34,537 nucleotides of DNA. Origin: Syntrophorhabdaceae bacterium (lineage in GTDB: Bacteria; Desulfobacterota; Syntrophorhabdia; Syntrophorhabdales; Syntrophorhabdaceae). Each line of letters begins with the position of its first letter. The first letter of the stretch is position 1. The notes beneath the pieces are model-generated. The model saw only the letters and a list, made by a program, of their open reading frames with translations, had not been told where the DNA came from and ran no database searches. Positions 9,825 to 33,880 of the stretch are shown piece by piece. The translations under genes and the position numbers were made by a program. The DNA lies in NCBI GenBank assembly GCA_028713955.1, contig JAQTNJ010000013.1:1-34537 (forward strand). Reading direction: 5' to 3'.

Positions 9825-9851
9825 AGTACCATCCTTTCCCTGATTCCGGAA

Positions 9852-11087
9852 TTAAAGTAAAAGAAGACTCGGTGTCTTCAGGAGCCTCTGCAATGTCCCT
9901 AAAAATTGTTCCGCTCCAAAACCATTAATCGCCCTGTGATCAAAGGTAAGACTGTATGGCATGATCGGGGCAATGACAATCTTCCCATTTTCTACAACCG
10001 GTCTGTCTTTGATCGGCCCTGTCGCCAGTATTGCGGATTCCGGCTGATTGATGATGGGGGTTTGAAAGTAGCTCACACCTCCTTTCCCCAGACTGGTGAG
10101 TGTAAAAGTTCCACCCGTAACATCGTCGGGCGTAAGCTTTCCTGTTTGTGCCTTCTCCATTTGCAGCTTCACTGCCCGCGATATCTCAATGAGAGATTTC
10201 CGGTCAGCGTTTTTTACTACGGGCACGATCAACCCCTCAATTCCAATGGCAACAGCAACTCCAATATTTGTATCTTCCCATATTTTCAGTTCATTCTCGA
10301 TCAAGCTACAATTTATATCACGGTGATTCTTGAGTGCCTTTACTATCACAAAAACCAGGATATCAATATAGCTGATTCTCACCCCGATGGTACTCTCCTG
10401 CCTCACTAAGGATTCCCTGAAATTCACCATCTCTGTCATGTCAAATTCACCCATGATCGTCATCTGGGCGGCCGTGGCAAGGCTCCTGTGCATATGCTCG
10501 GCGATCGACTTTCTCATTCCCCTGAGGGGTATCGTTTCCCTTACCTTTTTGCCCTGGAAGATTTCCGGTATTATCTCTTCAGGAGGAGGTGCCACCTCTT
10601 TCCGTTCCTCTATTGCCTTCTGGATATCCTCCCTGGTAATCCTTCCTCCGGGACCCGTTCCCTGTATTATCGTTATATCAATCATATGTTCCTCTGCCAT
10701 CTTGCGGGCTACAGGGGTAATTCTGATTCGATCTTCCGGTCTGTCAGAGGCAGCCCCGGCAGGCTGTGTTTCGCCCCGGGACCTGACCGTTTCCGAAGGG
10801 GCAGCATTTGTATTTTCGGACAGCTCTTTCCGGAGACCTTCATACTCTTCCTTCGTTCCCGCAATGAGTCCAACTATACTGCCCACCTTTGCCTTATTCC
10901 CTTCTGCTACAAGGATATGGAGAAGGCCCGCTTCTTCAGCCTCAATGTTCCACTCCGTCTTCTGGGTCTCGATGACAAGGACGACGGAACCTTTCTCAAC
11001 ATGGCACTCTTCTTTCACCTTCCATTCCACGAGATTCACATCATCCACGGTCATACCAAGTTTTGGTATCACTATCTGTACTGCCAT
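9852..11087 (-). CDS. 2-oxoacid dehydrogenase E2 acyltransferase
   Basis: This 411-residue protein has one N-terminal lipoyl domain (about 1-77, lipoyl Lys43 in ETQKTEW), a linker, a peripheral-subunit-binding domain (about 121-160, GTGPGGRITREDI) and a C-terminal catalytic domain. The active-site motif is DHRAING with His384. The usual Asp of HRxxDG is Asn388 here, a variant I recall from some other E2-like enzymes. A strong GGGAGG site precedes ATG 11087. Neighbouring E1 and E3 genes make it the core of the complex. Whether the substrate is pyruvate, acetoin or a branched-chain acid cannot be read from the sequence; a single lipoyl domain is common in all three types. Confidence 0.92.
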   Translation of the reverse strand: MAVQIVIPKLGMTVDDVNLVEWKVKEECHVEKGSVVLVIETQKTEWNIEAEEAGLLHILVAEGNKAKVGSIVGLIAGTKEEYEGLRKELSENTNAAPSETVRSRGETQPAGAASDRPEDRIRITPVARKMAEEHMIDITIIQGTGPGGRITREDIQKAIEERKEVAPPPEEIIPEIFQGKKVRETIPLRGMRKSIAEHMHRSLATAAQMTIMGEFDMTEMVNFRESLVRQESTIGVRISYIDILVFVIVKALKNHRDINCSLIENELKIWEDTNIGVAVAIGIEGLIVPVVKNADRKSLIEISRAVKLQMEKAQTGKLTPDDVTGGTFTLTSLGKGGVSYFQTPIINQPESAILATGPIKDRPVVENGKIVIAPIMPYSLTFDHRAINGFGAEQFLGTLQRLLKTPSLLLL

Positions 11088-11115
11088 ATCTTTATCCTCC
11101 CGGGATATCTATATT

Positions 11116-11496
11116 TTACTTTTCAACAAGCGCCCCGTACGCTTCTGCTGACATGAGGGAGCCAAGCTCGGCAGGGTTCGTCAACTCAACGACGATCATC
11201 CAGCCTTGCCCGTAAGGGTCCTGATTGACGATACCGGGGTCATCCTTTAGCATATCGTTTACCTTGATTACCACACCGCTCACAGGACTAAAAAGGTCAT
11301 TTGTTGCCTTAACAGACTCAATCACCCCGAAAGGCTCCATGTGGACCACTTCGGCGCCTACTTCGGGAAGTTCTATAAAGACTACATCCTTCAACTGTTC
11401 CTGTGCATAGTGGGTTATGCCAACCCGTCCTTTGCGCATTCCTTCGATGAGAAGCCAAGTATGCTCTTCGTTGTACCTGAGCTCATCAGGACACAT
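11116..11496 (-). CDS. gcvH: GcvH-type lipoyl carrier protein
   Basis: This 126-residue protein is the normal length for glycine cleavage H protein when started at ATG 11496, which has GAAAGGAG just upstream; an earlier in-frame ATG at 11529 would add 11 residues. The lipoyl-lysine motif is ESVKATND with Lys63. The flanking GVGIT- and DPYGQGWM-like elements are typical of H proteins. It lies between E1 beta and E2 in a 2-oxoacid dehydrogenase operon, with no T or P protein in the window. A role as octanoyl or lipoyl relay to E2, or as a second substrate of the shared E3, is inferred. Family assignment is firm; the job is open. Confidence 0.9.
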   Translation of the reverse strand: MCPDELRYNEEHTWLLIEGMRKGRVGITHYAQEQLKDVVFIELPEVGAEVVHMEPFGVIESVKATNDLFSPVSGVVIKVNDMLKDDPGIVNQDPYGQGWMIVVELTNPAELGSLMSAEAYGALVEK

Positions 11497-11533
11497 CTCG
11501 TCTCCTTTCAAAATCCTTAATACCTCCATTTAT

Positions 11534-12508
11534 TTAAAGTGTCCGTTTCACCGCCTGAATGATCGAATCCTTATTGGGCAGGTACATATCCTCTAAGATA
11601 GGGCTTCCCGCGATAGGGACCATGGGGGCTGCAACCCTCTGGACAGGTGCATCAAGCAGATCGAAATACTCTCCGCACGCCATCGCCGCGATTTCTGCTC
11701 CGATGCCACCTCTTATCCGTCCTTCTTCGACGGTGATAAGTCGACCAGTCTTTTCTACTGATTTGAATATTGCTGCCTTATCGAGAGGCACTATTGTTCT
11801 CAGGTCAACGACCTCCACATTGATACCCTCCGCAAAAAGGTCCTGTGCCGCCCCTAATGCCTCGTGTACCATGAATCCTAAAGCAACGACTGTTGCGTCT
11901 TTACCAGATCTGCAGACCGCCGCTTCCCCAAAGGGAATTGTGTAGTCTTCCTCGGGCACCTCCCCCGATATTCCACCAAGGATAAGCCTTTTATGTTCAA
12001 AGAAAATTACTGGATCATTGCTGCGAATGGCTGATTTCAAAAGACCTTTCGCATCATAGGGCGTAGAGGGCTCCACAAGAATAAGACCGGGTGCTTGGAT
12101 GAACTGTGACTCGAGACACTGCGAGTGACCGTACCCTGCCCGGACTCCACCTCCAACATTAGTTCGTATAGTTATAGGAATTGAATACTGGTTGCCTGTC
12201 ACGTACCGCCACTGACCAAGCTGGTTACATAATTGATCCATCGCAAGCATTGCAAAATCGCAAAACATGATTTCCAAAATCGGTCGATAACCGTACATGG
12301 CAACTCCCATTGCAACGCCTGTAATTGCGCTCTCGGCTATGGGGGTGTTGAGTACCCTGTCTGGGCCGAATTCTTTTACCAGCCCCGCGGTCTGTCCAAA
12401 AGGCGAAATCCGCACATCTTCACCCAGGACAAAGACTTTGGGGTCGCGCCTCATCTCTTCTGTCATAGCTTCATTCAATGCCTGTAAGAACGTGATTGTC
12501 CTCCCCAT
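11534..12508 (-). CDS. 2-oxoacid dehydrogenase E1 component, beta subunit (PdhB/AcoB-like)
   Basis: This 324-residue subunit forms the thiamine-diphosphate active site with E1 alpha. It has the pyrimidine-binding domain at the N-terminus (GEDVRISPFGQT, then LNTPIAESAITGVAMG with the conserved catalytic-type Glu) and the transketolase C-terminal domain (VVDLRTIVPLD). The HSQ element around GHSQCLES is also present. The start ATG 12508 overlaps the E1 alpha stop in TAATG, with AAGGGAG upstream. Its length fits pyruvate, acetoin and branched-chain enzymes of the alpha2beta2 type. Substrate specificity cannot be told from motifs alone. Confidence 0.93.
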   Translation of the reverse strand: MGRTITFLQALNEAMTEEMRRDPKVFVLGEDVRISPFGQTAGLVKEFGPDRVLNTPIAESAITGVAMGVAMYGYRPILEIMFCDFAMLAMDQLCNQLGQWRYVTGNQYSIPITIRTNVGGGVRAGYGHSQCLESQFIQAPGLILVEPSTPYDAKGLLKSAIRSNDPVIFFEHKRLILGGISGEVPEEDYTIPFGEAAVCRSGKDATVVALGFMVHEALGAAQDLFAEGINVEVVDLRTIVPLDKAAIFKSVEKTGRLITVEEGRIRGGIGAEIAAMACGEYFDLLDAPVQRVAAPMVPIAGSPILEDMYLPNKDSIIQAVKRTL

Positions 12509-13479
12509 TAGAGCACTCCCTTCTGTTCGTAGATGTCGGTTATAAAATCCTCTGTTGTGGGATCGGGGTCGGACAATGCTGTTTCTACGGCCATATCGAC
12601 CTCCTCCCGGACCTCTGCCCAGAGCTTGTTATCCTGTGCGGAGGTTATGACCTTTTTCTCGAGGAGCTTCTTCCGGCACAGATCAATAGGGTCTCTCTTG
12701 GCCCATTTCTCAAGGTCTTCTCGTTTGACGTATTCAGCACGTTCCCCTATGAAATGAGCACCCATGCGGAAGGTTTTGTATTCCACGAGATAGGGTCCTT
12801 TTCCGTCCCTTGCATGTTTTACCGCCTTCTCTGTCGCCTTATAGGTCGTTTCTATGTCCTGCCCGTCTACGATCTCATAAGGGATGCCATACCCTGCTGC
12901 CCTGGGGGCAATGTCTTCCGTCGGACAATGTTCACTCATGTAGGACATCTCGCAGAATTGATTTGTACACACTGCAAAAACAATGGGGAGCTGCCAAAGA
13001 GCAGCCATGCACATCGATGGATGGGCATCGGACTGGTTGCAAGTGCCTTCTCCGACAAAGTACATGGTTACACAATTCTTGTTTTGCATCTTAGAAGCAA
13101 GGGCCGTTCCCACGGCAATGGGGAAATCAGACCCCAAACTTGCAACCAAACCAGGAATATTCTGAGTTCGGTCGGCAAGATGCAGGGTTCCCTTGCCTTT
13201 GCACAGACCTGTCCTCTTGCCTAAATATTCCGCCCAAATATCTCTCGGTCTCATCCCTTTACCGATATACTCCCCAACACCCCGGTGCGTTCCAAAAAGA
13301 ATATCATCCTTAGATAACGGCGCGGTCACCCCTATGGATACCGCTTCCTGGCCAGTACCCAAGTGTGCATGGAGATGTATTTTCCCTCCCGCCAAAAGCT
13401 GGGCCCACTTTTCCTCCATAGTCCGAACAAGTAGCATCTTCTTGTATACTTCTATAAGTTTTTCATTCGGCAATTCCAC
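12508..13479 (-). CDS. 2-oxoacid dehydrogenase E1 component, alpha subunit (PdhA/AcoA-like), divergent
   Basis: This 323-residue subunit binds thiamine diphosphate. I prefer GTG 13479 because AAGGGGG lies 8 bases upstream; GTG 13488 would sit directly on that site. The HRGVGEYIGKG and GLVASLGSDFPIAVGTALA elements are typical of E1 alpha. The diphosphate/Mg motif, normally GDG about 27 residues before NN, reads GEG (Glu144) and later TN (Asn173), so the metal ligands are altered but plausible. The insert between them is Cys-rich (GTCNQSDAHPSMCM). It is the first clear gene of the operon down to 4191. It could be a pyruvate or acetoin dehydrogenase, or an enzyme with another substrate. Confidence 0.9.
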   Translation of the reverse strand: MELPNEKLIEVYKKMLLVRTMEEKWAQLLAGGKIHLHAHLGTGQEAVSIGVTAPLSKDDILFGTHRGVGEYIGKGMRPRDIWAEYLGKRTGLCKGKGTLHLADRTQNIPGLVASLGSDFPIAVGTALASKMQNKNCVTMYFVGEGTCNQSDAHPSMCMAALWQLPIVFAVCTNQFCEMSYMSEHCPTEDIAPRAAGYGIPYEIVDGQDIETTYKATEKAVKHARDGKGPYLVEYKTFRMGAHFIGERAEYVKREDLEKWAKRDPIDLCRKKLLEKKVITSAQDNKLWAEVREEVDMAVETALSDPDPTTEDFITDIYEQKGVL

Positions 13480-13503
13480 GATAAGCACCCCCTTCTTTAA
13501 CCC

Positions 13504-13922: not shown

Positions 13923-15041
13923 TCAGTGGTCCGTTCTCGTTATTCGACTTAGTTCGCAGGCTAGGCTAGTACGGTTCTTTACGCTTAGCTTCTCATATAT
14001 GGACCTCAAATGATTTTCGACCGTATATTCGCTGATAAATAGTTTTTGTCCAATTTCGCTGTTCTTCAATCCCTCGCTGACGAGAAAAACGACCTCAATT
14101 TCGCGTTTCGTAAGCCCCAATTCTGCCAGTTTCTTGCAGGCATTCGGTTTGGATTCGTTCTGACCAAGAAGAATAACGGAGATCTCGCTGCCCCTTGAAG
14201 TCCTCACAACACGAAGCTGGAAAGGAGCCATCTCCACAGCGTTCTTTTCAGCAGTACTATCGTTATTCTTTATTCCAGCATCTCCGCCTCGCCCGTTTGC
14301 TTTTACGGGCTTGATGCATTGTCTATTGGGGTTATTTGGCAGAGAAATAAAATAATTCTGCCAGTTGTCTTCATCCGTATCCAAAGAAGATACCAGTTGC
14401 CTTGCCTCATCATTCATATAAATGGGTTCTAAGCGATCATCAAGAGCTATTAAGCCCTTATATGGCAGATCTGTGCAGATTGAGTTTATGATTTCCTGGA
14501 CCTTACAGACCTTGTCAAAGAGAATAAACCTTTCCAACGCTGTCGATAGATAGAATGCTGCCTGCTCCATTTTGCTCTTTTCGGTAGATGAAAAATTACG
14601 CTCATTCTTGGACCGATACAGCGCCAAACCTCCGAGCAAAATCTTTCCCGACCTGAACTGCACAGCCAGCTCGTGGTGAATAGACTGAGGTTTTAAGGTC
14701 TCATTATAGTATTCAAGGTTTTCATAAGCCTTATAGGGTATCAAATCATCAACAGTCATAACCGTCTTGGCAAACGGTAAAGCCTTTAAAAATGGACTGA
14801 ATTTATAGTATTTTTCTCGAAAGTTTCTCCAATATTTTTCAACTATGTTTAGTTTAACAACGCTGTTCAGATTGAATCTGTCCGGGCAATTCGGCCTGGC
14901 CAAAAGGAAGATGCCCTGTTCACAACCAAACCAGCCTGATAAAAACCTAAGTATCTCTTTGCGAAATTCGTCTGTGTCGGAACATTCAAGTGCGGTTCGA
15001 GATAGGTTTTCAATAATGGTGATATTTTTTATATTTGTCAT
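13923..15041 (-). CDS. LuxR-family transcriptional regulator with GAF-like sensor region
   Basis: This 372-residue regulator has a C-terminal LuxR/GerE helix-turn-helix at about 308-370: GLTKREIEVVFLVSEGLKNSEIG, then TVENHLRSIYEKL. Residues 1-180 look like a GAF-type sensory domain, and 190-295 contain a PAS-like start (LIALDDRLEPIYMNDEA). No receiver domain or autoinducer-domain signature is seen, so it probably senses a small molecule directly. It has its own near-consensus promoter 27 bases upstream. It lies between the catabolic set (DUF296 to MFS) and the dehydrogenase operon, all on one strand, and may control either. The ligand is unknown. Confidence 0.85.
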   Translation of the reverse strand: MTNIKNITIIENLSRTALECSDTDEFRKEILRFLSGWFGCEQGIFLLARPNCPDRFNLNSVVKLNIVEKYWRNFREKYYKFSPFLKALPFAKTVMTVDDLIPYKAYENLEYYNETLKPQSIHHELAVQFRSGKILLGGLALYRSKNERNFSSTEKSKMEQAAFYLSTALERFILFDKVCKVQEIINSICTDLPYKGLIALDDRLEPIYMNDEARQLVSSLDTDEDNWQNYFISLPNNPNRQCIKPVKANGRGGDAGIKNNDSTAEKNAVEMAPFQLRVVRTSRGSEISVILLGQNESKPNACKKLAELGLTKREIEVVFLVSEGLKNSEIGQKLFISEYTVENHLRSIYEKLSVKNRTSLACELSRITRTDH

Positions 15042-15875: not shown

Positions 15876-16122
15876 TTGTTTTCTCCTCGTCGCACTCCGT
15901 CCTTCTAAGAAAATTATTCACCAATTTATTCCGCAGACCGAATCTGGAAGTGAGAAAATCATGCCCATGTTCAATCCACACACATACCGAACCAGTTACC
16001 TTTTTATGTGCCTGCACACCAGCCAAAGATTTATACTCATTATGTTCGCTCCGATTATTAGCATCTGAACATAGATTACCGTCAGCCCCTCTATTACACC
16101 AAAACCATAACTGAGCCATCTC

Positions 16123-17847
16123 TCAACGCGGAATCAACGGCAAGACCACATGGGAAGGTCTCGCGCGATCGTGGAATATCGTTTGCCTCGCCACACGGGT
16201 TTCGGCATCCACACCAATGTCATGACCCGTATTCGGGTTACGGTCATACTTCGGAAAATTACTGCTCGAGATTTCCAGGCGAATCCTGTGCCCGGCCTTG
16301 AACACGTTGCTGGTTCCCATCATATCGATGGTGTATTCATAAACCCGATCCGGCTCGATTAAAGACGGGAACTCGTCCGAGTCTCGGTAGCGTGCCCGAG
16401 TGATACCGTCGGCCAAAATGTATGCCTTGCCGTTCGGCCACACATCGACCAGCTTAGCGGTGAAGTCGGTGTCCGGGGCGGAGGATTGGGCGTAAAGCTT
16501 CATCATGATCGGCCCGGTTACTTCCAGATCAGCCACGAGGGGCTGTGTGGAATAGACCAGTACATCCTTTCTTTGCTCAATTTCACTTTGGTCGATAGCG
16601 CCGGCATCTCTGATCAGACGTCCGCCAAGAGTCGGTACCGGGTCAAGCGGATCGTAGTGAAAAATATCCTGCGGTTCCTTCTCGGCAACTTCAGTGGTCA
16701 AAAAACCGTCTCCGCTGATTCCGTTGGCGTTGCCACCACTATGGAGGTAGTAGTTGGCGTACGCCGCTCTTGCCAGAGGCCACTCATTCTCGTTGCGCCA
16801 GACGTTGTCACCCATAACGAAAATCCGGACTGGGGGCTCATCAATGACACCGTTATCGATACCCTTCAACCAGTAATCGAACCACCGTAGGTAGACACCG
16901 ATCAGGTCCGTTGCCGCACCTGTGGAGAGAATCCCAAAGTCGATCTCACCGACGACCGAGTTGAGTTCCACCCCGTGTACCCAGGGACCTATAATCAACT
17001 TAACGTTCTTTCTCGCGTGCTCCGTCCCACCCCGCGTCTTCATACCGGTGTAACTTGCCAATCCACCAGTTTCACTGGTGAAGTCGTACCAACTGCAAAC
17101 GATGCAAGTAGGTACCACGGTTTTCTCATAGACGGCAAATTCCAGCTCTCGCCAGTATTCATCATTCGTAGGGTGCTCTAAAAAATCGAAGTAAAAATTC
17201 ATGAGTCTGGATCTTTTGCCGACCGGCCATGCCCTGAGCGGCAAATAGCTGGCTTCCCGTTCCCTGTTGTCGAATGCGTTCAGGACTTCCCGCATGAGTC
17301 CCGGTAGCTCACTTGGAGCATGATATCTTCTGGCATGCATCGCCATGAGTCCGAGTGTCAGGAATTGGACAGTTTTCAACTGGAACACACCGCCTTTAAA
17401 CATCATGTTTCTCGCACTCGAGGGCGACACCATCGGTGCCATGGCGACCAGGTGGGGCGGCTGCGCATGCGCAGACATCCATTGTACCGTTCCCAGGTAC
17501 GAACCGCCGTACATGCCCACTTTTTGATTTGACCACGGCTGTGCTGCAGCCCATTCAACCGTGTCGTAGCCATCTAAAGCATCGTCACGGTGTGGATACC
17601 ACTCCCCGTCGGAGGCATGGCAACCACGGCAGTCTTGAATTACCACTGCATATCCGTTTCTCGCAAACCGCATGGGATCACATGACATCATCACCACCGA
17701 TGGGTTGCCTTTGTCATAGGGCAACCGCACAACCAGTGTCGGCAGCGGTTGATCAACGTTGGGACGATAAATATCTGCGCGCAGCACCGTGCCGTCCCTC
17801 ATCGGAACTGCTACATTTATCTCAACTTTGATTTCGTGAATTGCCAT
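16123..17847 (-). CDS. CocE/NonD-family serine hydrolase
   Basis: This 574-residue alpha/beta hydrolase is related to cocaine esterase, glutaryl-7-ACA acylase and X-Pro dipeptidyl peptidases. Nucleophile Ser116 is in GGSYLG. The likely triad partners are Asp255 (SWYDFTSE) and His291 (GPWVHG), close to Ser117/Asp259/His287 of CocE. The C-terminal third is the jelly-roll domain of the family (SSPDTDFTAKLVDVWPNGKA, then AGHRIRLEISSSNFPKYDRNPNTG). No signal peptide is seen, so it is cytoplasmic. It follows the racemase-like gene by 77 bases, which suggests cleavage of an ester or amide after uptake by the nearby MFS carrier. The substrate cannot be named. Confidence 0.9.
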   Translation of the reverse strand: MAIHEIKVEINVAVPMRDGTVLRADIYRPNVDQPLPTLVVRLPYDKGNPSVVMMSCDPMRFARNGYAVVIQDCRGCHASDGEWYPHRDDALDGYDTVEWAAAQPWSNQKVGMYGGSYLGTVQWMSAHAQPPHLVAMAPMVSPSSARNMMFKGGVFQLKTVQFLTLGLMAMHARRYHAPSELPGLMREVLNAFDNREREASYLPLRAWPVGKRSRLMNFYFDFLEHPTNDEYWRELEFAVYEKTVVPTCIVCSWYDFTSETGGLASYTGMKTRGGTEHARKNVKLIIGPWVHGVELNSVVGEIDFGILSTGAATDLIGVYLRWFDYWLKGIDNGVIDEPPVRIFVMGDNVWRNENEWPLARAAYANYYLHSGGNANGISGDGFLTTEVAEKEPQDIFHYDPLDPVPTLGGRLIRDAGAIDQSEIEQRKDVLVYSTQPLVADLEVTGPIMMKLYAQSSAPDTDFTAKLVDVWPNGKAYILADGITRARYRDSDEFPSLIEPDRVYEYTIDMMGTSNVFKAGHRIRLEISSSNFPKYDRNPNTGHDIGVDAETRVARQTIFHDRARPSHVVLPLIPR

Positions 17848-17924: not shown

Positions 17925-18659
17925 TTATCGTCTCTCACCGATGATTTTTCTGGCAGCTTCTACTGCTGTGTCGATAGACGCCTGTGCAGGGATACCGAGT
18001 TCCTCCATTGTTGCCCTGCTCAGGACTCCGGCAAATTCGGACAAGTCCGGTGATGCACATGCTAACAATACGACTCGGGCCCCTTTTTTCACGGCATTGC
18101 GCACCAGAGGCATTGCAACAGCCACGAGCTCTTCGTAATTAGGCTTCTTTTCCTCAACCATCCACTGATACACATCGATATCGAATATTTCAGTTGACAC
18201 GTAGCTCTCCCAGAAACCCAAATCTTTAATCCGTTGCTCATTGCGGGGAGCCATTTCCGGGAGGTGGTTATGGATAAGCGAGAATCGTCCGTATGTTTGG
18301 ACTGCCTTCGTATATCCCGACAAGGACATCCCTACGACCGGCATGGAAAGCTTTTTCCGGGCATCGTCGACTCCGCCATCACCCCAACTGGGGCAGATGG
18401 CCGCACCGTATCCCACACGGTCAGCTTCACAGTATGCTTGAAAAAGAGGTTCACCAATGATATGGCCGTACTTCTTCGCATATTCCAAGTCGAGTTCCGA
18501 TACCGATTTTGGTACAAACAGTGGGGTTGATGAAAATCGATCCGCGCTCCAGACATCTACCTCTGGGAATTTCTTGAGATACTCCACAGTGTTCCGGAAC
18601 CCGTAATGGTTCGATGGAGTATGAGACACAAATACAATCCTTTCTTTCAACAGCATCAT
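17925..18659 (-). CDS. Asp/Glu/hydantoin racemase-superfamily protein
   Basis: This 244-residue protein has the two-cysteine signature of cofactor-independent racemases: Cys89 in AAICPSWGDGGVDDAR and Cys201 in LLACASPDL. The first matches the hydantoin-racemase CxxxxDPGLDAAR pattern. Members also include aspartate racemases, arylmalonate decarboxylases and maleate isomerases, so racemisation, isomerisation or decarboxylation are all possible. Two ATGs (18659 and 18656) follow GGAGG; the second has better spacing. It lies between the MFS carrier and the CocE-type hydrolase, so all three probably act on one imported compound. The superfamily call is good; the reaction is unknown. Confidence 0.75.
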   Translation of the reverse strand: MMLLKERIVFVSHTPSNHYGFRNTVEYLKKFPEVDVWSADRFSSTPLFVPKSVSELDLEYAKKYGHIIGEPLFQAYCEADRVGYGAAICPSWGDGGVDDARKKLSMPVVGMSLSGYTKAVQTYGRFSLIHNHLPEMAPRNEQRIKDLGFWESYVSTEIFDIDVYQWMVEEKKPNYEELVAVAMPLVRNAVKKGARVVLLACASPDLSEFAGVLSRATMEELGIPAQASIDTAVEAARKIIGERR

Positions 18660-18756: not shown

Positions 18757-20058
18757 TTAACAATCAGGTTCGGCATGTTTTACTATGTCACCGGGGTCCT
18801 GGGGAACCTCTACGCGTGCATACTGATAGCGACCAAGTGTGAGCAGCGCCAAACCACAAGCACACAAAAGTATTGCGGATACTTGAAAAGCTGGTATATA
18901 CGATTTGAAAAGATCAAACGACCATCCATAAGCATATGAACCCACACCGCTCCCAAACCCAACTGCTCCCATCAGGGTTCCATAAATGCTTCCAAAGGCG
19001 ACGACCCCAAAATATTTTTTAACCAAGAATGGAACCAGATCGCCTTCAGCCCCGGTCGCAACACCGACGAGGATTGCTGCCAGCGGTAAAATCCAGACAG
19101 ACGGAAGTATATTGATACTGAGCAAATAGAGTCCTGTGGCACCGAGAAAGAGTGCAACGCAGGCAACTATGGGCGCGAAAATTTTGTCCAGTATGAAACC
19201 AACGCCAGTGCGAGCTGCAGCTATGCCGAATCCCATCCATGCTGCAGACTGTGCTGCAAATGCGGGACCGATTCCGCGATCGGTGGCATACGATACCAGA
19301 TGAACAAGCGCACCCATTGTTATACCACCTGCAAACACAGTGGCAATGCCAATCACCCAAAAACGATAACCGGCAATCGCGTGGTAAAAGGAAATTCCTA
19401 CTCCAGCATTAGTTATTTTTTTTGAAGCAAGGGAAGTCTTGTTGCTGCCGGGATTGGATTTCATTGCACCCGACGAGCGAAAGATCAACTGGTGTGCCGA
19501 GAGGCCAAACAGTAGAATCAATCCGCTGACGCACAAATAAGCCTGACGCCAATCCATGACCTCGATGAGCTTGCTTACGATGATGGGCATTGCCATTGAG
19601 CCCACGCCGGTGCCTATCGCCGCCAATCCCAACGCCATCCCAAGCCGGCGGTCAAATGCAAGGGAAATTACCGCGATGTATCCCGCAGGCGTTGTACCGA
19701 CTCCCACAATGCCGGTGAATAATCCTACGGCAATAATGTAGGCGTAGCTCACTGGCGCCACAGAGACTGCCAAGAGCCCCAGAGCAAAGAGTACGACCGA
19801 GAACAGAATTACCTTGTTCCATCCCTTTCGATCAGCAATATAACCTATGAGAGGCGCGCCTATTGAGGCACCGAGCATTCCCACCATAGGCAAGACCGCG
19901 ATATCCCCGCGGCCCCAGTTGAAGGAAGCCGCCATTTGCTTCAGGAGTATCCCCAAGGTTCCGAAAAATGCCGGCCCGAATCCACACGCGAGCCCTAATG
20001 CGGCGCCAAAAACGACGAGTACCTTTTGACGTGATTTTATTGACAAACCGTTCAGCAT
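18757..20058 (-). CDS. MFS transporter (OFA/monocarboxylate-type)
   Basis: This 433-residue protein has about 12 hydrophobic segments. The MFS motif A, GYIADRKG, is at residues 72-79 between helices 2 and 3, and a central cytoplasmic loop lies near 205-220. Helix packing and length resemble oxalate/formate and monocarboxylate carriers, so uptake or exchange of an organic acid is the best guess. AGGAGG lies 11 bases before ATG 20058. It is followed by the racemase-like gene after 98 bases. A 265-bp gap separates it from the KAS III-like gene upstream, so it may begin its own transcript. The substrate is inferred from family only. Confidence 0.85.
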   Translation of the reverse strand: MLNGLSIKSRQKVLVVFGAALGLACGFGPAFFGTLGILLKQMAASFNWGRGDIAVLPMVGMLGASIGAPLIGYIADRKGWNKVILFSVVLFALGLLAVSVAPVSYAYIIAVGLFTGIVGVGTTPAGYIAVISLAFDRRLGMALGLAAIGTGVGSMAMPIIVSKLIEVMDWRQAYLCVSGLILLFGLSAHQLIFRSSGAMKSNPGSNKTSLASKKITNAGVGISFYHAIAGYRFWVIGIATVFAGGITMGALVHLVSYATDRGIGPAFAAQSAAWMGFGIAAARTGVGFILDKIFAPIVACVALFLGATGLYLLSINILPSVWILPLAAILVGVATGAEGDLVPFLVKKYFGVVAFGSIYGTLMGAVGFGSGVGSYAYGWSFDLFKSYIPAFQVSAILLCACGLALLTLGRYQYARVEVPQDPGDIVKHAEPDC

Positions 20059-20323: not shown

Positions 20324-21355
20324 TTAAAGCCACCGTACTATCATGCACGGACAGTGCCCTCCTAATCCCGGAGCGTAGAGCATAATGACAGAACCGCTTC
20401 GAATCGACCCATGTTCTGAAAGTTCAGCAAGAACATATGCGATATCGACATTTCCGCAGTTCCCTATCTTGTCGTAGCCCAGCTTCCACTTTTCTTTACC
20501 TATCCCCGCCTCTATCCCATCTTTGACCCATTGGTCATGCAGGGCAGCAACAGGGTGATGAATAATGGCTATGTCAATATCGGACAGATTTAAACCTGCT
20601 TTCTCCAAAGCTTCGTGAATGGTTGGCATCATATGGTCTTTACCAAGCAGCACACCAAAATCCATGGCCCATTGGTCCATTGTTAAAAATACGCCCGAAT
20701 CTGCCTGGACCCCTGCTATTTCTTTAAGGGCTGGGTTCATAATCGGCGTATTCAGCATCCTGGAATGGTTATACCTTTCACCGCACGTTCTGTTCGTATA
20801 GGAAAGGAACTCGCACTTGAGATGCTGGGCAGAAACTATGGCAGCCCCTGCCCCATCTCCAACAAATTTCGCGGGTGGGCTTGTATGGTCAATTCCCCAA
20901 CCAGTTTTCGCAATATCGTGACCGCAAGAGGTGACTACTGAGACAAGAACTTTTTTGTAGTGCCCTCCAAGGACAAGGTTCCAAGCCAGGTGTATTCCAT
21001 CGACAAAGCTTGCACAGAAGTTCTGAATGTTGACAACTGGCGTATCTTTCTTAAATCCAATTTTGTCATGTATATACGTCCCAACCATCGGAAAGACCTG
21101 TTTCCCCCCGATATTGCCAGAAATAATAAAATCAATATCAGAAGGTTGCAGGCTGGCAGCCTCTAACACTTTTCTCGTTACTCCCTCTGCCATAATTTCC
21201 ACTGCATTTTCATCTCTCAACTCCCTCACCTCTTCGGGCCCCTTGAAGAGCGCCAAATGCTCTTCGGGGATCAGACAATCAAGGTACGACCGTTCCTCTC
21301 TTTTCACGATGGTTTCCGGGAGATATGACACCACTGCTTCCAATCCGACTTTCAT
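20324..21355 (-). CDS. KAS III-like (FabH/thiolase-fold) condensing enzyme
   Basis: This 343-residue enzyme has the Cys-His-Asn triad of beta-ketoacyl-ACP synthase III: Cys114 in NFCASF, His266 or His267 in IIHHPV and Asn299 in IGNCGN. The flanking sequences differ from housekeeping FabH (ACSGF, HQAN, GNTS), so it belongs to a divergent branch, such as those that condense unusual acyl-CoAs. The late GLGG turn (PGLGGHC) is present. AAAGGAGG precedes ATG 21355. It starts 30 bases after DUF1329 and is in line with the RND exporter genes, so it may make or modify the lipid that they move. The substrate is unknown. Confidence 0.85.
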   Translation of the reverse strand: MKVGLEAVVSYLPETIVKREERSYLDCLIPEEHLALFKGPEEVRELRDENAVEIMAEGVTRKVLEAASLQPSDIDFIISGNIGGKQVFPMVGTYIHDKIGFKKDTPVVNIQNFCASFVDGIHLAWNLVLGGHYKKVLVSVVTSCGHDIAKTGWGIDHTSPPAKFVGDGAGAAIVSAQHLKCEFLSYTNRTCGERYNHSRMLNTPIMNPALKEIAGVQADSGVFLTMDQWAMDFGVLLGKDHMMPTIHEALEKAGLNLSDIDIAIIHHPVAALHDQWVKDGIEAGIGKEKWKLGYDKIGNCGNVDIAYVLAELSEHGSIRSGSVIMLYAPGLGGHCPCMIVRWL

Positions 21356-21385
21356 CTACTGCCTCCTTTGCGTAAACGTTTGACA

Positions 21386-22846
21386 CTATTTCACTGCGTC
21401 CTGCAAACTGGTGATATCAAACTTGTTGCGCTGTGACCAACCCACGGTGGGCATGAAGTAGGCCTGGTTGATTGAGGTGTGCACGTCCAGATGATCCTGT
21501 ATAAGCTGCTTTGTCATGGAGTGTATTCCTGTCCCGGTGTCATAGTAAGAGAGATGAGTATAAGTACGCCACAGGCGTCCCTTCTGGTCGTACATCTCTG
21601 CATGAAGGATCTGAAATGTCTCCTTATCCACGTAGATCATACGCTTGCTATAAATGAAATTTTTGTCCAATTGCGTCAGCTTCAACACGACCACCGGTCG
21701 GCGTTCGAACTTGAGGCCGTGCCACTCTGCACCTTTTGAAGTAAGGTAATCAGACCCATCAATGGTGTAAGGGAAGAGATATTCCCGGTCTTCGACTATC
21801 TCGTACTTATAGGGATATAGGGTAGGGGACATTTTTTGTGAAAAACCAAAGCTATCCAAATAGGTGTAATCCGACCCCCCCGTAGTATCCTGGGTATCGG
21901 TATTCGACAGCTTTCGCACTCGCCTCAGTGCCCCTATATACATGAATATCGTGTCTAACTTGTCGACATCATTGTAGTATGTTGAAAGCAAGGCGTCACC
22001 AAATCTGTCCCGAGGAGCATAAAACTCAACACGGAAATTCAGGGTCTCATCCCTCGCCTTTGCCCGCTCATCAAAAAAGCCATCAGGTCTGGTCGGCGTT
22101 ACCGCCCGGCCCTGAAGTCGTAAATAACAAATTATACCTTTTGACCCGTAGTCCGGCTTAAGGTTCTTGCTAAATCCTGTCTGACGAATAACGCCGTAGC
22201 TATCCTCGCCAGTTATGTAGTTCTGCCTATTGTTATACAGATATTGCTGGGCTGCGAACTTCCCCGATGGCTTCGGAAAGGGGAAACCCGGGCGCAACGT
22301 CTTGCTGATTAAGTATCCCTTTTCATCAAGCTTCGCCTGCCCCGCGTTGTCTTTTGTCGCCTGGGCAATTTTCAGGTTCCACGGGTACTGCCGGGTGGGA
22401 ACGATCTCCATTTCAGGAAAATTTCCGGCAAGAGAAGGAGCAACCCCTGGCTTAAAGCGTTCATATAATGCCGGCACCATAAGGGCCTTGAGCCCCGGGT
22501 ATTTCTCTTTATCATTATAGGAATACTTCCCCGGTTTTATCTCCGGTGCGATCTTGCCGACCACATCGGGTGCCTTGAACCCAATGGTCTCAGCCCAAAG
22601 CCTTTTCGTGACCTCGGGATCAGACGCATACACGGCGTACTGCTCGGGAGGCATATTCTTCTTCCAGCTCCAGTTTGTAAACACCGGCCTCGGATCATCA
22701 AAGTAGCGTTTGTGCTTGTCAAACTCCGGATGGATGATCCTCTCCACCACATAGTCCCGTTCCGCACTCCATAGGGGTAACGCAATCGAACACAATACAA
22801 CCGCGATGAACAAAAAGAATGTCCCAAATGTTTTAATCTTTTTCAT
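21386..22846 (-). CDS. DUF1329 periplasmic/outer-membrane protein
   Basis: This 486-residue protein has a signal peptide (residues about 1-28, KKIKTFGTFFLF core, ending LWSA). The body matches DUF1329, which from memory has a LolA/LolB-like lipid-carrier fold: RMIYVDKETFQILHAEMYDQ and GRLWRTYTHLSYYD are typical. AGGAGG lies before ATG 22846. It sits between DUF1302 and the KAS III-like gene. DUF1329, DUF1302, an RND exporter and a YCF48-like protein recur together in Proteobacteria, so it likely carries a hydrophobic molecule across the periplasm. That role is inferred from fold and neighbours. Confidence 0.85.
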   Translation of the reverse strand: MKKIKTFGTFFLFIAVVLCSIALPLWSAERDYVVERIIHPEFDKHKRYFDDPRPVFTNWSWKKNMPPEQYAVYASDPEVTKRLWAETIGFKAPDVVGKIAPEIKPGKYSYNDKEKYPGLKALMVPALYERFKPGVAPSLAGNFPEMEIVPTRQYPWNLKIAQATKDNAGQAKLDEKGYLISKTLRPGFPFPKPSGKFAAQQYLYNNRQNYITGEDSYGVIRQTGFSKNLKPDYGSKGIICYLRLQGRAVTPTRPDGFFDERAKARDETLNFRVEFYAPRDRFGDALLSTYYNDVDKLDTIFMYIGALRRVRKLSNTDTQDTTGGSDYTYLDSFGFSQKMSPTLYPYKYEIVEDREYLFPYTIDGSDYLTSKGAEWHGLKFERRPVVVLKLTQLDKNFIYSKRMIYVDKETFQILHAEMYDQKGRLWRTYTHLSYYDTGTGIHSMTKQLIQDHLDVHTSINQAYFMPTVGWSQRNKFDITSLQDAVK

Positions 22847-22883
22847 TATTTCCTCCTCCTGTAAGAGAACGTTTTTGTCCTCC

Positions 22884-22898
22884 AGCCTGCATCAGGCT
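22884..22898 (-). other. short hairpin overlapping the DUF1302 stop
   Basis: AGCCTG/CAGGCT with a 3-nt loop overlaps the TAG stop codon of the DUF1302 gene on the minus strand. There is no T-run, so it is at most an attenuation or RNA-stability element between DUF1302 and DUF1329. Confidence 0.3.
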
Positions 22899-24408
22899 AA
22901 TTGAACGTGCGCACTACCTTCAGGAACATATAATCTTTGTGCTCCATTGGGTTGAGCCCGGCCCCATTCTTGTTTCCGCTCACCAAGATTGCTGCTCCGA
23001 CATAGCGCCATTCGTTGTTGGGCTGGTAAGTTAGCTGAAATCGGAACATGTCTGCCAGATTGTTATGATCGTGCTGCCAGACAACCTGTGGGGTTATCCT
23101 GTTATGCCAGTAGGATGTTTGCAACATCATGAGGGTCGTGTAATTGTTTTCGTAGACATTATTCGCCAGTCCGTATATTGCCCCTGCATATTTAGGATAA
23201 TCCAATATTTTCCTGTGATAGAACTGGCCCGTGATACTGAAATAGTTTGTCGGGTTGAGGAAGGGCACCTTAAACTTCCAGTCTACGGCACCTGCCCAGC
23301 GTATCTCGTCATGCTGCTCGAAATAGTTCTTCGCATTCAAGAAGGTATTGTTGAATGCGTAGAATCCTTCCCACCTGATGGTGGGGGATACGCCTCCAAG
23401 AAAATCTGCCTTCACAGACGTAATATCCCTCGAAAAGGTGGCGCCCACGTACCTGAAAAGAGGGTATTTGCCAACCTGAGTGGGATGAACGAGCCGCGCT
23501 CCGTCGTCATCCGTCGTAAAAGTGGGAGCAACGGGCGCGTTCTTCAACACCGGGTCCTTGTCAAGACCGTAATAGTAGTTAAGGCTGACAATAGCGTCAT
23601 AAATTACCGCCCTGACCCTTGCGGCATATTCAAACCCGTCGGAACTGAAAGCGTTGACCTTGTCAATACTCTTTGTAATTGAGCCGACCCTCATATTGGG
23701 CCCGGCCACAACATAGGGTGCCCAGATACCTGAAACGTCATTCCCTGGCCCCACGGGTTGATTACGAATGAACTCTACATTGGGGTTAAACACGAAATCA
23801 TACCCCAGATCCTGAAGCCACGTTGGTTTGTTCTTCTGGCTGTATCCGAGCCTCACGAGCCATATGGGAATCCTCGATGTCTCAAGCTCCACGTCCGCCA
23901 GTACACGGCGCTGATCCAGGGGGTTGATCTGGTCCATGATGCGGACCCCATCCGTCTCTCCCCAGACGACAACCTGTTTTCCCACGCGGACAAGGCCGTT
24001 GGGCGGCGTCCAGGTGAAATGGGCCTCTTTCAGGAGCTGCCAGTCTTGATTATCCATGTAGAGATATCTGCGCGACTTGGCAAATCCCTTGTCATTCCAT
24101 GCCGACTCGTTGCTCTTGATATCATAGATCCAGTCCATGGAGAACATGCCCGACACAAAGAGTTTCGTATTGTCGGTAGGCTGGTATGCGGTTTCCAACA
24201 AGACGTTGGTGAGTGCGCCGTTGAGACCCCGCTCGAAGTCGGGGTAGCTCTTGTCGTTCAAACTGAACTGCGCATTCTGTGTCAGGTACCCTATGACTCT
24301 GAGCGGCTTCCCGCCGATCATGATCTCATAGGCGCCAGCCGTACTTACCAGCAAGAACAACATCGTCAAGCCGATACAAAAGCCATAGCTTGTCTTTTTG
24401 ATCTTCAT
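22897..24408 (-). CDS. DUF1302 outer-membrane-type protein
   Basis: This 503-residue protein has a clear signal peptide (residues 1-26, ending STAGA). The rest alternates aromatic and polar residues, as in an outer-membrane beta-barrel, and it ends in a terminal aromatic (RTFN). Motifs such as GKQVVVWGETDGVRIMDQINPLD and RVGYSQ are typical of DUF1302 (porin-like) proteins. A strong AGGAGGGG site precedes ATG 24408. It lies 73 bases after the RND gene, in the usual exporter cluster. I infer that it forms the outer-membrane exit or acceptor for the substrate of the RND protein. Its structure has not been shown here. Confidence 0.85.
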   Translation of the reverse strand: MKIKKTSYGFCIGLTMLFLLVSTAGAYEIMIGGKPLRVIGYLTQNAQFSLNDKSYPDFERGLNGALTNVLLETAYQPTDNTKLFVSGMFSMDWIYDIKSNESAWNDKGFAKSRRYLYMDNQDWQLLKEAHFTWTPPNGLVRVGKQVVVWGETDGVRIMDQINPLDQRRVLADVELETSRIPIWLVRLGYSQKNKPTWLQDLGYDFVFNPNVEFIRNQPVGPGNDVSGIWAPYVVAGPNMRVGSITKSIDKVNAFSSDGFEYAARVRAVIYDAIVSLNYYYGLDKDPVLKNAPVAPTFTTDDDGARLVHPTQVGKYPLFRYVGATFSRDITSVKADFLGGVSPTIRWEGFYAFNNTFLNAKNYFEQHDEIRWAGAVDWKFKVPFLNPTNYFSITGQFYHRKILDYPKYAGAIYGLANNVYENNYTTLMMLQTSYWHNRITPQVVWQHDHNNLADMFRFQLTYQPNNEWRYVGAAILVSGNKNGAGLNPMEHKDYMFLKVVRTFN

Positions 24409-24481
24409 ATCCCCTCCTTATTTTAGGTCTGTAAGCTGCTCTTCCCCGGAGTGATGCTTTTGTACCCGACTCACAAAACCT

Positions 24482-26902
24482 CTATCTCTTTGCCAATGTA
24501 GGCTCTATCACCCCCTTTATATTCTCTGCGGGGACTGTGGCACCCCTGCTTATAAAACGTGGCTTAATGATATAGATCATGAGAGGATGGAGCGTCAGTG
24601 TAAGTATCACGTTGACCCCCATGATCATGGAGAGAAAAAAACCTACCTCTGCTTGGAATTTCATGTCAGAAAAGAAATACCAGGTAAGGATTGGGAGGAT
24701 GACAGTGATGCCCGTATAGACCACAGCCTTGCCGCAGGTACAGATGGACTGTATGATTGTCCCGTACCAGTCTCCGTTCTGGAGAGAAAACTCTTCCTGG
24801 CAGCGGCTGTAAAGATAGATCGCGAAATCTACTCCCACTCCCACTCCTATGGCCGCGATAGGGAGCGTATTGATGGAAAGACCAATCCCCTTCATGGCCA
24901 TGTACGCGGCTGCCACGCTGTTCGCGAGGAGCAGGGGAAGGGTAAGCATCAGGCCTGCAACTATCGACTTGAACGACAACACGCAAAGGATGAAGATGGC
25001 GGCGAGGACGGTAAGGTCGATGATGATGTGAGACCTCTTCATCTCCTCGTTGAGGGCTATCTCCATACCAACCCGGCCGCCGGCAAGCAGGAACTCCCCT
25101 TTGTCCGTTTTCATGGGGTGAGTCTTGAAAAACCCATAGGCAGCATCACGGATGCGCATTAGGTTATCTGAGGTGTGATCGGAGAAATAGAGGCTGATCT
25201 GGGATCTCTCCAGTATCCCATCGACAAAGCGGGCCAAGGTGGATTTGTCGGTATTTGCCCGCACCTGCCCCATGAGGCCGGACAGGAGAGCTTCTTGGCG
25301 GGGCAACTGATACCACAGCTTATCCCCGTCATGGAGGGTCATATTGATCATCTTCACCATATTGATGAGGGAGGTTGACGACTTGTAGATGTCCGGGAGT
25401 TCCTGTTTCATATGGCGGCTAAAAGCCTCGAAGGTGTTGAGGATCGCCGGGTCATAGACGGAGTTCGGCTGGCCCTCGTAGAAAAGCATTAAGTTCTCCG
25501 AAGAGGCGTCGAAGGTCTTATCGATCACGGCCTGATCCTTGTTGTAGGTATGGCTCGCATAGAAGATGGGGGAGCCGGGGGTGGGATCTCCGATCTTAAG
25601 CTTCCCCATCTGCCAGAAACAGAAGACGGCAAGGAGAATGATCAGAGCCCCCACCACAAACCTGCTCCGGGGACCGATGGCAAAACCGGTGATCTTCATC
25701 ATGATCCTGGCCTTCCAGTCGACCTGACATTTAGCCTTGTCCCACTCCTCGCTTTTAACCTTGAGGGGGATGAGGCTGCAGACGATGGGAACCAGGACCC
25801 CTGTCATGATGATGCTCATCATCCAGAAGGTCATGATAATAGCGAGATGCTGCATAAGGACGATCTTCGCGAGGAAGAGCACGGAAAAGCCTGCGGCATC
25901 GGTGGCAACTGCGGCAAAGTTGGGGACGAGCATGGTCCGCATGGTCTCGTAGCAGGCCTTGAAGCGATCACCCCCGCTGCCGTTCAGTTCCTCGAAGTAA
26001 CGGTAGGCGATCTGGTGCGAGTTGCCGATCATGCGGGAGCCTACAAGGAAGGCAAGGACATAGAGCATGGGGCTGAAATTGATCCCTGTGAAGCCGATGA
26101 ACCCCAGACCCCAGACGGTGAGTATCCCGGCATTCACAAGGGGTGAGATCATGCCCGGGAAGTTGAGGAAGACAAGCCAGAGAACCAGGGCTATGGCAGC
26201 GATGCTGATGCCGAAAACTACGAACATCTGCGTCTTCATGTTGTAGATCCAGCCCATGAGCATGGGATATCCCACAATATGGACCGAGGTATTGGCATCG
26301 CCGTACTTTTGCACCAACTGCCGGAGGAGGGCGAAGGCCCTCTCGTAAGAGATATTTTCCTTGAACTCGGTGACGAGAAGCACCCCGGTGCCGTCCCTTG
26401 AGACAAGCATCCCATTGTATGCGGGAGAGGAAAATATGTTCTTCTTCAGTTGCGCCATATCCTGGGGTGTCGCCGGGATATCGGGCCACATGAGGGGGTT
26501 GATCTTGATCTCACCCCGTGCCAGGGTCTTCACCACCTTTATGGAGCGACTGGCGATGGAGATCGTGAGGGGGCGGTAGACCTCATCCCACATCTCGACC
26601 TCTTCCTGCATGGCCTTCAGCTTCTTGAGGGTGCCCTCGTTGAATACGTCCCCTGCCTTGACCTTGAGGGCAATGACAGCCCCCGAGCCCCCACTCCCGA
26701 AGATCTTGGAGAACTTCGCATGGAGCTTAAGATAGGGATGATCATAGGGAAGCATGTCCCGGAGGATGACCTCACCCCGGATTTGGAAAGCGCCATATAG
26801 AAAAACCCCGGTGATGGCCAGAACAGCCAGGAAGAATGTCAGTCTGTGGCGTGCCAGGAGCCAGGAGAACTTATCCAGCATGGTTCGATGATCGTTATTC
26901 AT
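24482..26902 (-). CDS. RND/MMPL-family exporter
   Basis: This protein has 806 residues from ATG 26902, which has CGGAG seven bases upstream; an earlier ATG at 26917 lacks a site. There are 12 predicted helices in two halves, each a first helix, a large periplasmic domain and five more helices. The second half has the family Asp in GVGVDFAIYLYSR (about residue 692, TM10). The matching position in the first half is replaced by GSRMIGNSHQIAYRYFEE, so only one half carries the classical acidic residue. It starts 17 bases after the YCF48-like gene. It is probably proton-driven and lipid-directed like MmpL and HpnN, working with DUF1302 and DUF1329. Confidence 0.9.
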   Translation of the reverse strand: MNNDHRTMLDKFSWLLARHRLTFFLAVLAITGVFLYGAFQIRGEVILRDMLPYDHPYLKLHAKFSKIFGSGGSGAVIALKVKAGDVFNEGTLKKLKAMQEEVEMWDEVYRPLTISIASRSIKVVKTLARGEIKINPLMWPDIPATPQDMAQLKKNIFSSPAYNGMLVSRDGTGVLLVTEFKENISYERAFALLRQLVQKYGDANTSVHIVGYPMLMGWIYNMKTQMFVVFGISIAAIALVLWLVFLNFPGMISPLVNAGILTVWGLGFIGFTGINFSPMLYVLAFLVGSRMIGNSHQIAYRYFEELNGSGGDRFKACYETMRTMLVPNFAAVATDAAGFSVLFLAKIVLMQHLAIIMTFWMMSIIMTGVLVPIVCSLIPLKVKSEEWDKAKCQVDWKARIMMKITGFAIGPRSRFVVGALIILLAVFCFWQMGKLKIGDPTPGSPIFYASHTYNKDQAVIDKTFDASSENLMLFYEGQPNSVYDPAILNTFEAFSRHMKQELPDIYKSSTSLINMVKMINMTLHDGDKLWYQLPRQEALLSGLMGQVRANTDKSTLARFVDGILERSQISLYFSDHTSDNLMRIRDAAYGFFKTHPMKTDKGEFLLAGGRVGMEIALNEEMKRSHIIIDLTVLAAIFILCVLSFKSIVAGLMLTLPLLLANSVAAAYMAMKGIGLSINTLPIAAIGVGVGVDFAIYLYSRCQEEFSLQNGDWYGTIIQSICTCGKAVVYTGITVILPILTWYFFSDMKFQAEVGFFLSMIMGVNVILTLTLHPLMIYIIKPRFISRGATVPAENIKGVIEPTLAKR

Positions 26903-26919
26903 GTTTTCGCTCCGCATTA

Positions 26920-27978
26920 CTAATTCACTTTTACCCAGTTACCAGAGGATGTCTGCTGGTACACCGCCCCTTCGAATCCCACTGTGACGAATCCCGGGGT
27001 TCCCCTTCGTGCGAGGCCATACAGCCAACTATAGGTAATGGGCGGACCGAATTGGGGGGCCTTCCAGGTCCTGCCCCCATCGGTGGAAGTCAGGAATATG
27101 CCGTCACCCCCGGCGTTGATGGTGTTCCGTTTATCTCCTCCGATGCAAAAGAGGGTACTCTTGGGTGCACCTGTGTCGACCTTCTTCCAGGTCTTGCCGC
27201 CATCGGTCGTCCGTGTCACATGTCCCTCTATACCCACGGCCCAGGCATTCTGTGCATCTACTGCCATCACATCGAACAAGTATGGGTCAGCAACAATGTC
27301 GCCGGTTTCTGGGGATACCCCAAACCCGCCTGCCTCTTTCACCCACTTCCTCCCGCCATCCCGGGTGTGATAGATCAGTCCGTATTCTCCCACGGCCCAC
27401 CCGTTCTGGGCATCAGAGAAGGAGACGGCCTTAAGGATGAAGTCGCCCTCCTTAAACTGGACTGTCCATGTCTTGCCACCATCATTTGTGTTGAGGATGT
27501 GTGTACGCTCCGTGACGACCCAGCCTTTGTTAGGGGATACGAAGACCACATCCATGAGGAAGAAGGGCACAGGGCTCTTCTGACTCTTCCAGGTTTTTCC
27601 TCCATCCGCAGTGTGGATGATGGTCCCTTCGTCCCCCACTGCCCATCCGTGCTTTGTATCGACAAAAAAGATAGAAGTGAGGGTATAGTCCGTTCCCGTC
27701 TCCTGGGCATTCCAAGTTTTTCCTCCATCCGCAGTGTGCAGCACAGTGCCCCAGCGGCCGCAGGCCCAGCCATTATTCTCATTCGGGAACGTAACAGAAA
27801 ACAAGTCGTAATTAGGTTTTTTCTGGTTAGCCGCAAGAGTAGCCGACTCGCTGTGTAGAACAACAAAAAAGAGAAGGATGCAGATTAGCGCGATTGCGCT
27901 TGGAATACTGTTCAGTCTCTGATTATTAACAAATCTTCGGGGCAATGTTTTGTGATGACTCTTAGAAACCTCCTGCAT
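26920..27978 (-). CDS. YCF48/BNR-repeat beta-propeller, exported
   Basis: This 352-residue protein has an N-terminal hydrophobic stretch (about residues 28-48, ALICILLFFVV) acting as signal or anchor. Six or so repeats follow with the consensus GWAVGxxGxIxxTxDGGKTWxxQ, the YCF48/photosystem-stability (HCF136) type seven-bladed propeller. Start ATG 27978 follows AGGGG at good spacing. It is the first gene of the transcript through RND, DUF1302, DUF1329 and KAS III, and has its own promoter at 28039-28067. Such proteins regularly neighbour RND exporters of this class. An assembly-factor or periplasmic scaffold role is inferred. Confidence 0.88.
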   Translation of the reverse strand: MQEVSKSHHKTLPRRFVNNQRLNSIPSAIALICILLFFVVLHSESATLAANQKKPNYDLFSVTFPNENNGWACGRWGTVLHTADGGKTWNAQETGTDYTLTSIFFVDTKHGWAVGDEGTIIHTADGGKTWKSQKSPVPFFLMDVVFVSPNKGWVVTERTHILNTNDGGKTWTVQFKEGDFILKAVSFSDAQNGWAVGEYGLIYHTRDGGRKWVKEAGGFGVSPETGDIVADPYLFDVMAVDAQNAWAVGIEGHVTRTTDGGKTWKKVDTGAPKSTLFCIGGDKRNTINAGGDGIFLTSTDGGRTWKAPQFGPPITYSWLYGLARRGTPGFVTVGFEGAVYQQTSSGNWVKVN

Positions 27979-29761: not shown

Positions 29762-29780
29762 AACTAAAAAGGAGGATGTC

Positions 29781-30281: not shown

Positions 30282-30316
30282 CAAGGCGATTCAGTATTTA
30301 CAATGCATTGGTTTAC

Positions 30317-30346
30317 TTAACCTGAACCTTAACCTCAGCCTGAATT
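30317..30346 (+). repeat. degenerate hexamer repeat (TNARCC-type)
   Basis: Five consecutive hexamers read TTAACC, TGAACC, TTAACC, TCAGCC and TGAATT, lying between the receiver gene and the methyltransferase start. It is short and imperfect. It could be a leftover of slippage. Confidence 0.4.
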
Positions 30347-30366
30347 TGTTCTTAGCATTTAATACT

Positions 30367-33400: not shown

Positions 33401-33402
33401 GT

Positions 33403-33870: not shown

Positions 33871-33880
33871 CATGGCCTCC

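Follow-up and report, generated by a model that had tools for sequence, protein, structure and literature searches.

A rare, divergent KAS III-like enzyme behind an AmeABCD-type envelope cassette in a Syntrophorhabdaceae bacterium

The DNA analysed here (contig JAQTNJ010000013.1, positions 1–34,537; hereafter, the window) comes from a Syntrophorhabdaceae bacterium (GCA_028713955.1) and carries a four-gene envelope transport cassette followed by a gene for a condensing enzyme of the KAS III superfamily (hereafter, KAS). The source genome (3.45 Mb, 371 contigs) belongs to the same genus as Syntrophorhabdus sp. PtaU1.Bin058, and its FabH and second DUF1329 protein each sit beside the PtaU1.Bin058 counterpart in trees. 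The Syntrophorhabdus group is known for degrading aromatic compounds syntrophically. Five intact open reading frames (ORFs), all on the minus strand and all with Pfam matches above curated cut-offs, make up the set. In order of reading they encode a periplasmic YCF48-like propeller of the AmeC type (26920..27978; PSII_BNR/YCF48 PF14870, E 8e-37), an HAE3-like RND/MMPL transporter of the AmeD type (24482..26917; PF03176, E 2e-17), a DUF1302 outer-membrane β-barrel of the AmeA type (22897..24408; PF06980, E 1.6e-10), a DUF1329 LolA-like periplasmic protein of the AmeB type (21386..22846; PF07044, E 1.6e-35; LolA_like PF17131, E 4e-17) and KAS (20324..21355; ACP_syn_III/ACP_syn_III_C, PF08541/PF08545).

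A preliminary description of this DNA had proposed five same-strand genes of these families with spacers of 2–73 bases, and the ORFs, Pfam matches and coordinates (spacers of 2, 73, 50 and 30 bases) bear this out. It had also placed the set under one promoter, which could not be demonstrated: promoter-like sites across the region number 12, with 14.3 expected in shuffled sequences. A search for sigma-54 promoters returned 11 sites, with 15 expected. Neither terminator-like nor promoter-like sites were found on the minus strand in the four gaps of the set, including the gap between the DUF1329 and KAS genes, where, by the preliminary description, a strong terminator and promoter would have spoken against the link. 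Because this last gap holds no terminator-like site, and promoter-like sites are no commoner than in shuffled sequence, co-transcription of all five genes is plausible. Within the 30-base gap upstream of the KAS gene lies a strong ribosome-binding site (aaaggagg).

The first four genes are an already described envelope cassette of the AmeABCD type, which is defined by clustered DUF1302, DUF1329, YCF48-like and RND genes, and all four are present in the window. The YCF48-like (residues 21–50), DUF1302 and DUF1329 proteins have N-terminal hydrophobic segments of the signal type, and membrane segments are numerous in the RND protein. The best NCBIfam match of the RND protein is TIGR00921 (HAE3; E 2e-43, 148.5 bits, below the curated cut-off of 351.9). 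It is 50–71% identical to the copies in other complete cassettes, with the top value in Syntrophorhabdus PtaU1.Bin058, in which the RND gene of locus L102 occupies positions 627–2993 of contig MVRS01000229. The predicted structure of the DUF1302 protein (pLDDT 83) is a porin-like barrel, with Foldseek matches to porins such as OmpF (E 5e-11). Homologous systems have been tied repeatedly to the use of hydrophobic substrates: AmeABCD of Castellaniella defragrans, described as an efflux system, is required for growth on monoterpenes (PMC6394551); Pseudomonas putida requires DUF1302, DUF1329, periplasmic and RND genes to use Tween 20 (PMC10866462); a ‘Nanopod’ gene cluster of the benzene degrader ORM2a is strongly expressed during benzene degradation (PMC13101534); and nanopods of phenanthrene-grown Delftia contain DUF1302 and DUF1329 proteins (PMC3110197). 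By analogy with these mutants and expression data, the window cassette would move a hydrophobic compound across the envelope by means of its RND pump, LolA-like carrier, propeller and outer-membrane barrel.

To place the cassette we compared 40 other loci, namely 37 named loci found with a DUF1329 profile, the second copy of the same genome and two loci from the same family. The complete four-gene cassette occurs in 19 of them, in agreement with the earlier suggestion that these genes recur together. The second complete cassette of the genome (contig C3, L008:2998-17903) has no KAS gene and is flanked by a DUF35–thiolase pair, two URO-D-like methyltransferases and a B12-binding protein, an arrangement that is 81–95% conserved in Syntrophorhabdus PtaU1.Bin058 and UBA7527. 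As a separate observation, these surroundings hint at a corrinoid-dependent demethylation or C1 route tied to the transporter.

The fifth protein keeps the Cys114–His266–Asn299 triad, which is invariant across 23 aligned KAS III sequences, and has no membrane or signal-type segment. Five FabH residues that contact coenzyme A (CoA) or acyl carrier protein (ACP; W32, R36, R151, N247 and R249 in Escherichia coli numbering) are replaced or gapped in the window enzyme and in its one close relative (below), whereas they are nearly invariant in the 21 other KAS III proteins of the same MAFFT alignment. With these contacts lost though the triad is intact, KAS does not look like an ordinary ACP-dependent FabH. 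It scores far below all NCBIfam cut-offs, including those of the FabH models (TIGR00747, 89.1 bits versus 292.1; PRK09352, 89.9 versus 249), and the divergent Cys–His–Asn condensing enzyme of the preliminary description is supported. The predicted structure (pLDDT 82; residues 199–226 poorly modelled) has the KAS III fold, with OleA (Z 37.2) and FabH (36.8) in effect tied as closest matches and PqsD likewise among the closest. Judged by its residues and its modelled fold, the protein is a member of the KAS III superfamily that looks catalytically competent, and it is not a FabH.

A KAS relative occurs in one of the 40 other cassette or DUF1329 loci, L090, from the metagenome-assembled genome of Syntrophaceae bacterium UBA2208. 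Its product is 44–46% identical to window KAS and is encoded on the same strand as DUF1329, about 4.4 kb downstream of it. Thirty-three of the other loci extend at least 1.5 kb past DUF1329 and 22 at least 5.5 kb, and L090 alone is positive; it was located via its DUF1329, and its linkage to the cassette therefore partly reflects the search design. In the tree the two enzymes form a clade of their own outside FabH (support 100/100), on a very long stem (2.69). The preliminary description had named two signs that together would refute its reading: grouping with ordinary FabH, which did not appear, and absence of the KAS gene from most exporter clusters, which did, as the gene is missing from 39 of the 40 other loci. 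Conservation does not extend to all five genes as a set, and the fifth is an uncommon addition to the cassette.

Wider searches brought no third member. Neither the second cassette of the genome nor relatives of this genome in the same genus and family have KAS. Among 99 relatives and 395 genomes sampled from the phylum, all matches with E < 1e-20 are at FabH level (28–30% identical), two of the three in plsX–fabH–fabD order, and they were rejected as true KAS relatives on these grounds. Searches with both sequences in 17 cassette-bearing genomes, in the order and the class to which UBA2208 belongs and in further phylum samples found no additional clade member; plasmids gave only FabH-level matches (identity ≤28.5%), and viral contigs gave no match to the two-row KAS alignment. 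A scan of genome contigs with KAS alone also gave no match, although it needs near-exact eight-residue words and so misses moderate relatives. That no member occurs away from a cassette is a result for the sampled genomes of one phylum.

In the DUF1329 tree the two proteins linked to KAS never pair as sisters (0% of bootstrap trees); that of UBA2208 groups with Desulfatitalea copies, at which no KAS was seen. Inheritance of KAS and cassette as a single unit was accordingly rejected, and the KAS gene has either been recruited twice or moved. Double recruitment would favour a functional tie and mobility a passenger gene, and the data are compatible with either. KAS may be a housekeeping-like or horizontally gained enzyme that landed behind the cassette without any functional tie, as its absence from related genomes and from the paralogous cassette, the non-sister DUF1329 partners and its lower third-position G+C content (GC3 48 versus 59–73 in the cassette genes) would suggest. 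Yet both clade members lie downstream of DUF1302–DUF1329 on the same strand, no member turned up elsewhere among about 400 genomes sampled from the phylum and 39 from the family, and the triad and reading frame are intact. We consider a passenger gene unlikely, although it ranks directly after the reading that we favour.

What surrounds the cassette bears on its purpose. In the window, the same-strand array runs beyond the limits first drawn, to about position 4191, interrupted by three gaps of 266–434 bases. All on the minus strand, it includes an MFS transporter 266 bases past the KAS gene (18757..20058; PF07690), an Asp/Glu racemase-superfamily enzyme (17925..18659; PF01177, E 3e-12), a CocE/NonD-type hydrolase (16123..17847; TIGR00976, 488.8 bits, above cut-off), a LuxR-type regulator (13923..15041; PF00196), a thiamine pyrophosphate (TPP)-dependent complex of the 2-oxoacid or acetoin dehydrogenase type (8421..13488; E1α, E1β, lipoyl H-like protein, E2 and E3, by Pfam), and lipoate ligase-like and lipoyl synthase-like genes serving that complex (6868..8411; PF21948, PF04055/PF16881). 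An ORF at 15811–16119 (102 amino acids) without a Pfam match overlaps the adjoining gene and was set aside. The corresponding genes in UBA2208 read, in order, DUF1302, DUF1329, two α/β hydrolases, 3-hydroxyacyl-CoA dehydrogenase, two SDRs, KAS, MFS, CoA ligase, DUF35 and thiolase, the last two resembling the benzoylsuccinyl-CoA thiolase subunits BbsA and BbsB at scores below the cut-offs of those models.

Fifteen cassette or DUF1329 loci contributed 120 flanking ORFs, in which SDR (9), MFS (6), sigma-54 activators, thiolase (4) and URO-D (4) occur most often, followed by 3-hydroxyacyl-CoA dehydrogenase (3), E1 (2) and acyl-CoA dehydrogenase (2). An MFS gene follows KAS in UBA2208 and the cassette in L102, neither being a close homologue of the window MFS. 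Homologous TPP-dependent E1 genes are found close to the cassette of the window and to those of L087 (UBA2188), L091 and L153, from a same-family genome, which also has a CoA ligase and BKACE. The window LuxR is 45.5% identical to the LuxR that closes L102, with weaker homologues within L091 and at the end of L153; this association of E1 and LuxR with the cassette is a post hoc observation. Cassette neighbours are mostly degradative, the window included, with SDRs, thiolases and CoA ligases alongside E1 dehydrogenases of the TPP-dependent kind and regulators of the LuxR type. On a separate point, the recurring E1, joined in several cases by LuxR (window 8421–15041, L087, L091, L153), in different bacteria hints at a shared cleavage step acting on an α-hydroxyketone or diketone.

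Considering these degradative neighbours, the UBA2208 gene run and the literature on cassettes and hydrophobic-substrate growth, we favour, at a probability of roughly 55%, a role for KAS as a CoA-thioester carbon–carbon enzyme within the degradation of a hydrophobic compound by a Syntrophorhabdus-type anaerobe. The cassette heads a degradative gene cluster, and KAS would act on CoA thioesters of the pathway: Cys114 would be acylated, and the C–C bond of a β-keto intermediate would then be made or broken. In this way the enzyme could fill the role of the thiolase or BKACE found beside other cassette copies. Its CoA-thioester role, the direction of its reaction and its substrate we infer from this context. 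Several points weigh against a catabolic role. The degradative genes of the window lie 7–15 kb from the five-gene set, beyond the gaps of 266–434 bases; characterised KAS III relatives are mostly biosynthetic; the five genes are no conserved unit, as KAS accompanies just two cassette loci whose DUF1329 proteins are not sisters; and, to judge from the lost FabH contacts, the carrier may be CoA, ACP or a free acyl group. Literature searches turned up no catabolic KAS III of this type. A bolder version of the catabolic role, which we think improbable, is that KAS is a new CoA-dependent C–C enzyme, recruited at least twice to transporters of hydrophobic compounds, that would acylate or cleave the substrate during its passage through the inner membrane, coupling transport to the first metabolic step.

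The preliminary description had instead read the five genes as a self-contained make-and-export system, in which KAS makes an unusual acyl lipid or polyketide-like product for export by the cassette. Direct adjacency across 30 bases, the ribosome-binding site of the KAS gene itself, the structural likeness to OleA and PqsD (makers of ketones and quinolone signals) and the description of AmeABCD as an efflux system would all suit such a system. However, no ACP and no second synthase or tailoring set appears among the window genes in Pfam and NCBIfam matches, the neighbours are degradative, 39 of the 40 other cassette or DUF1329 loci lack KAS, and published work connects the cassette with hydrophobic-substrate growth (PMC6394551, PMC10866462, PMC13101534). 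We regard this proposal as unsupported and doubtful, and rank it third, after the catabolic enzyme and the passenger gene. Very improbable, in our view, is a non-catalytic role as structural partner in a thiolase–DUF35 complex, as for PhlA or archaeal HMG-CoA synthase. Three-part complexes of this type are known (PMC6392133), and DUF35–thiolase pairs occur in the UBA2208 run and next to the genome's second cassette, but the window genes include neither DUF35 nor thiolase. PhlA lacks the catalytic Cys, whereas the window enzyme keeps Cys, His and Asn and, having that Cys, is not PhlA-like in this respect. It has weak sequence similarity to archaeal HMG-CoA synthase (E 2e-6; 6esq_I); PhlA was absent among the matches in sequence searches of solved structures, a result that leaves room for kinship.

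What is known here is the four-gene cassette; what is new is the rare and very divergent KAS III-like enzyme behind it. The cassette is a widespread and poorly understood envelope system needed for the use of oily compounds, and the functions of its components are unsolved. It recurs at the head of degradative clusters, both in anaerobic syntrophs and in related bacteria, and at several loci it is accompanied by TPP-dependent dehydrogenases and a LuxR regulator, which points to what it serves. Within the KAS III superfamily the enzyme represents a new branch, small and open to testing, without the carrier-binding residues of FabH.

Other observations concern cassette diversity and the rest of the window. 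The Desulfatitalea genome Site_C24, in which the cassette has greatly expanded, has at least 14 distinct loci with DUF1329 proteins of this clade (L089, L092, L093, L095, L096, L100, L101, L103, L106, L109, L111, L114, L115 and L120). In two cassettes of Deltaproteobacteria nDJH13bin5, giant ORFs start 29 bases past DUF1329 (L085:6047-11014, 1,656 amino acids and open at the contig end; L086:4325-11443, 2,372 amino acids); they begin like serine/threonine kinases and one matches a histidine kinase, which suggests that a giant sensor is linked with the cassette. At 31118–34372 the window encodes molybdenum hydroxylase subunits (one MoCo-binding, 780 amino acids; one with a CO dehydrogenase flavoprotein C-terminal domain), facing a small kinase–regulator–methyltransferase set at 28982–31002.

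Set against characterised systems, KAS shares with FabH, PqsD and OleA the fold (VIA-align Z 35–37 over about 300 residues) and the Cys–His–Asn triad, but is only 17–27% identical and does not adjoin plsX or fabD. The DUF35–thiolase enzymes (BbsAB, PhlACB and archaeal thiolase/HMG-CoA synthase) find a parallel in the BbsA/BbsB-like pair a few genes from the UBA2208 KAS, whereas the window has no such pair near its own. AmeABCD (PMC6394551) has the same four parts (DUF1302 barrel, DUF1329 LolA-like protein, YCF48/COG4447 and an RND pump, of HAE3 type there and HAE3-like in the window) beside a hydrophobic-compound pathway. It differs in that no KAS III-like gene is reported there and in its order, DUF1302–DUF1329–YCF48–RND by accession, of which the window order YCF48–RND–DUF1302–DUF1329 is a cyclic shift. 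DUF1302–DUF1329 also precede YCF48–RND in L098, L106, L109, L111 and L115, so that two two-gene modules seem to have been swapped. The ORM2a ‘Nanopod’ cluster (PMC13101534), compared by description and not by alignment, has interspersed universal stress and small hypothetical proteins and lists no KAS III-like gene; with the window it shares an origin in Desulfobacterota, the DUF1329, YCF48, MMPL and porin-like proteins, and a link to hydrocarbon degradation.

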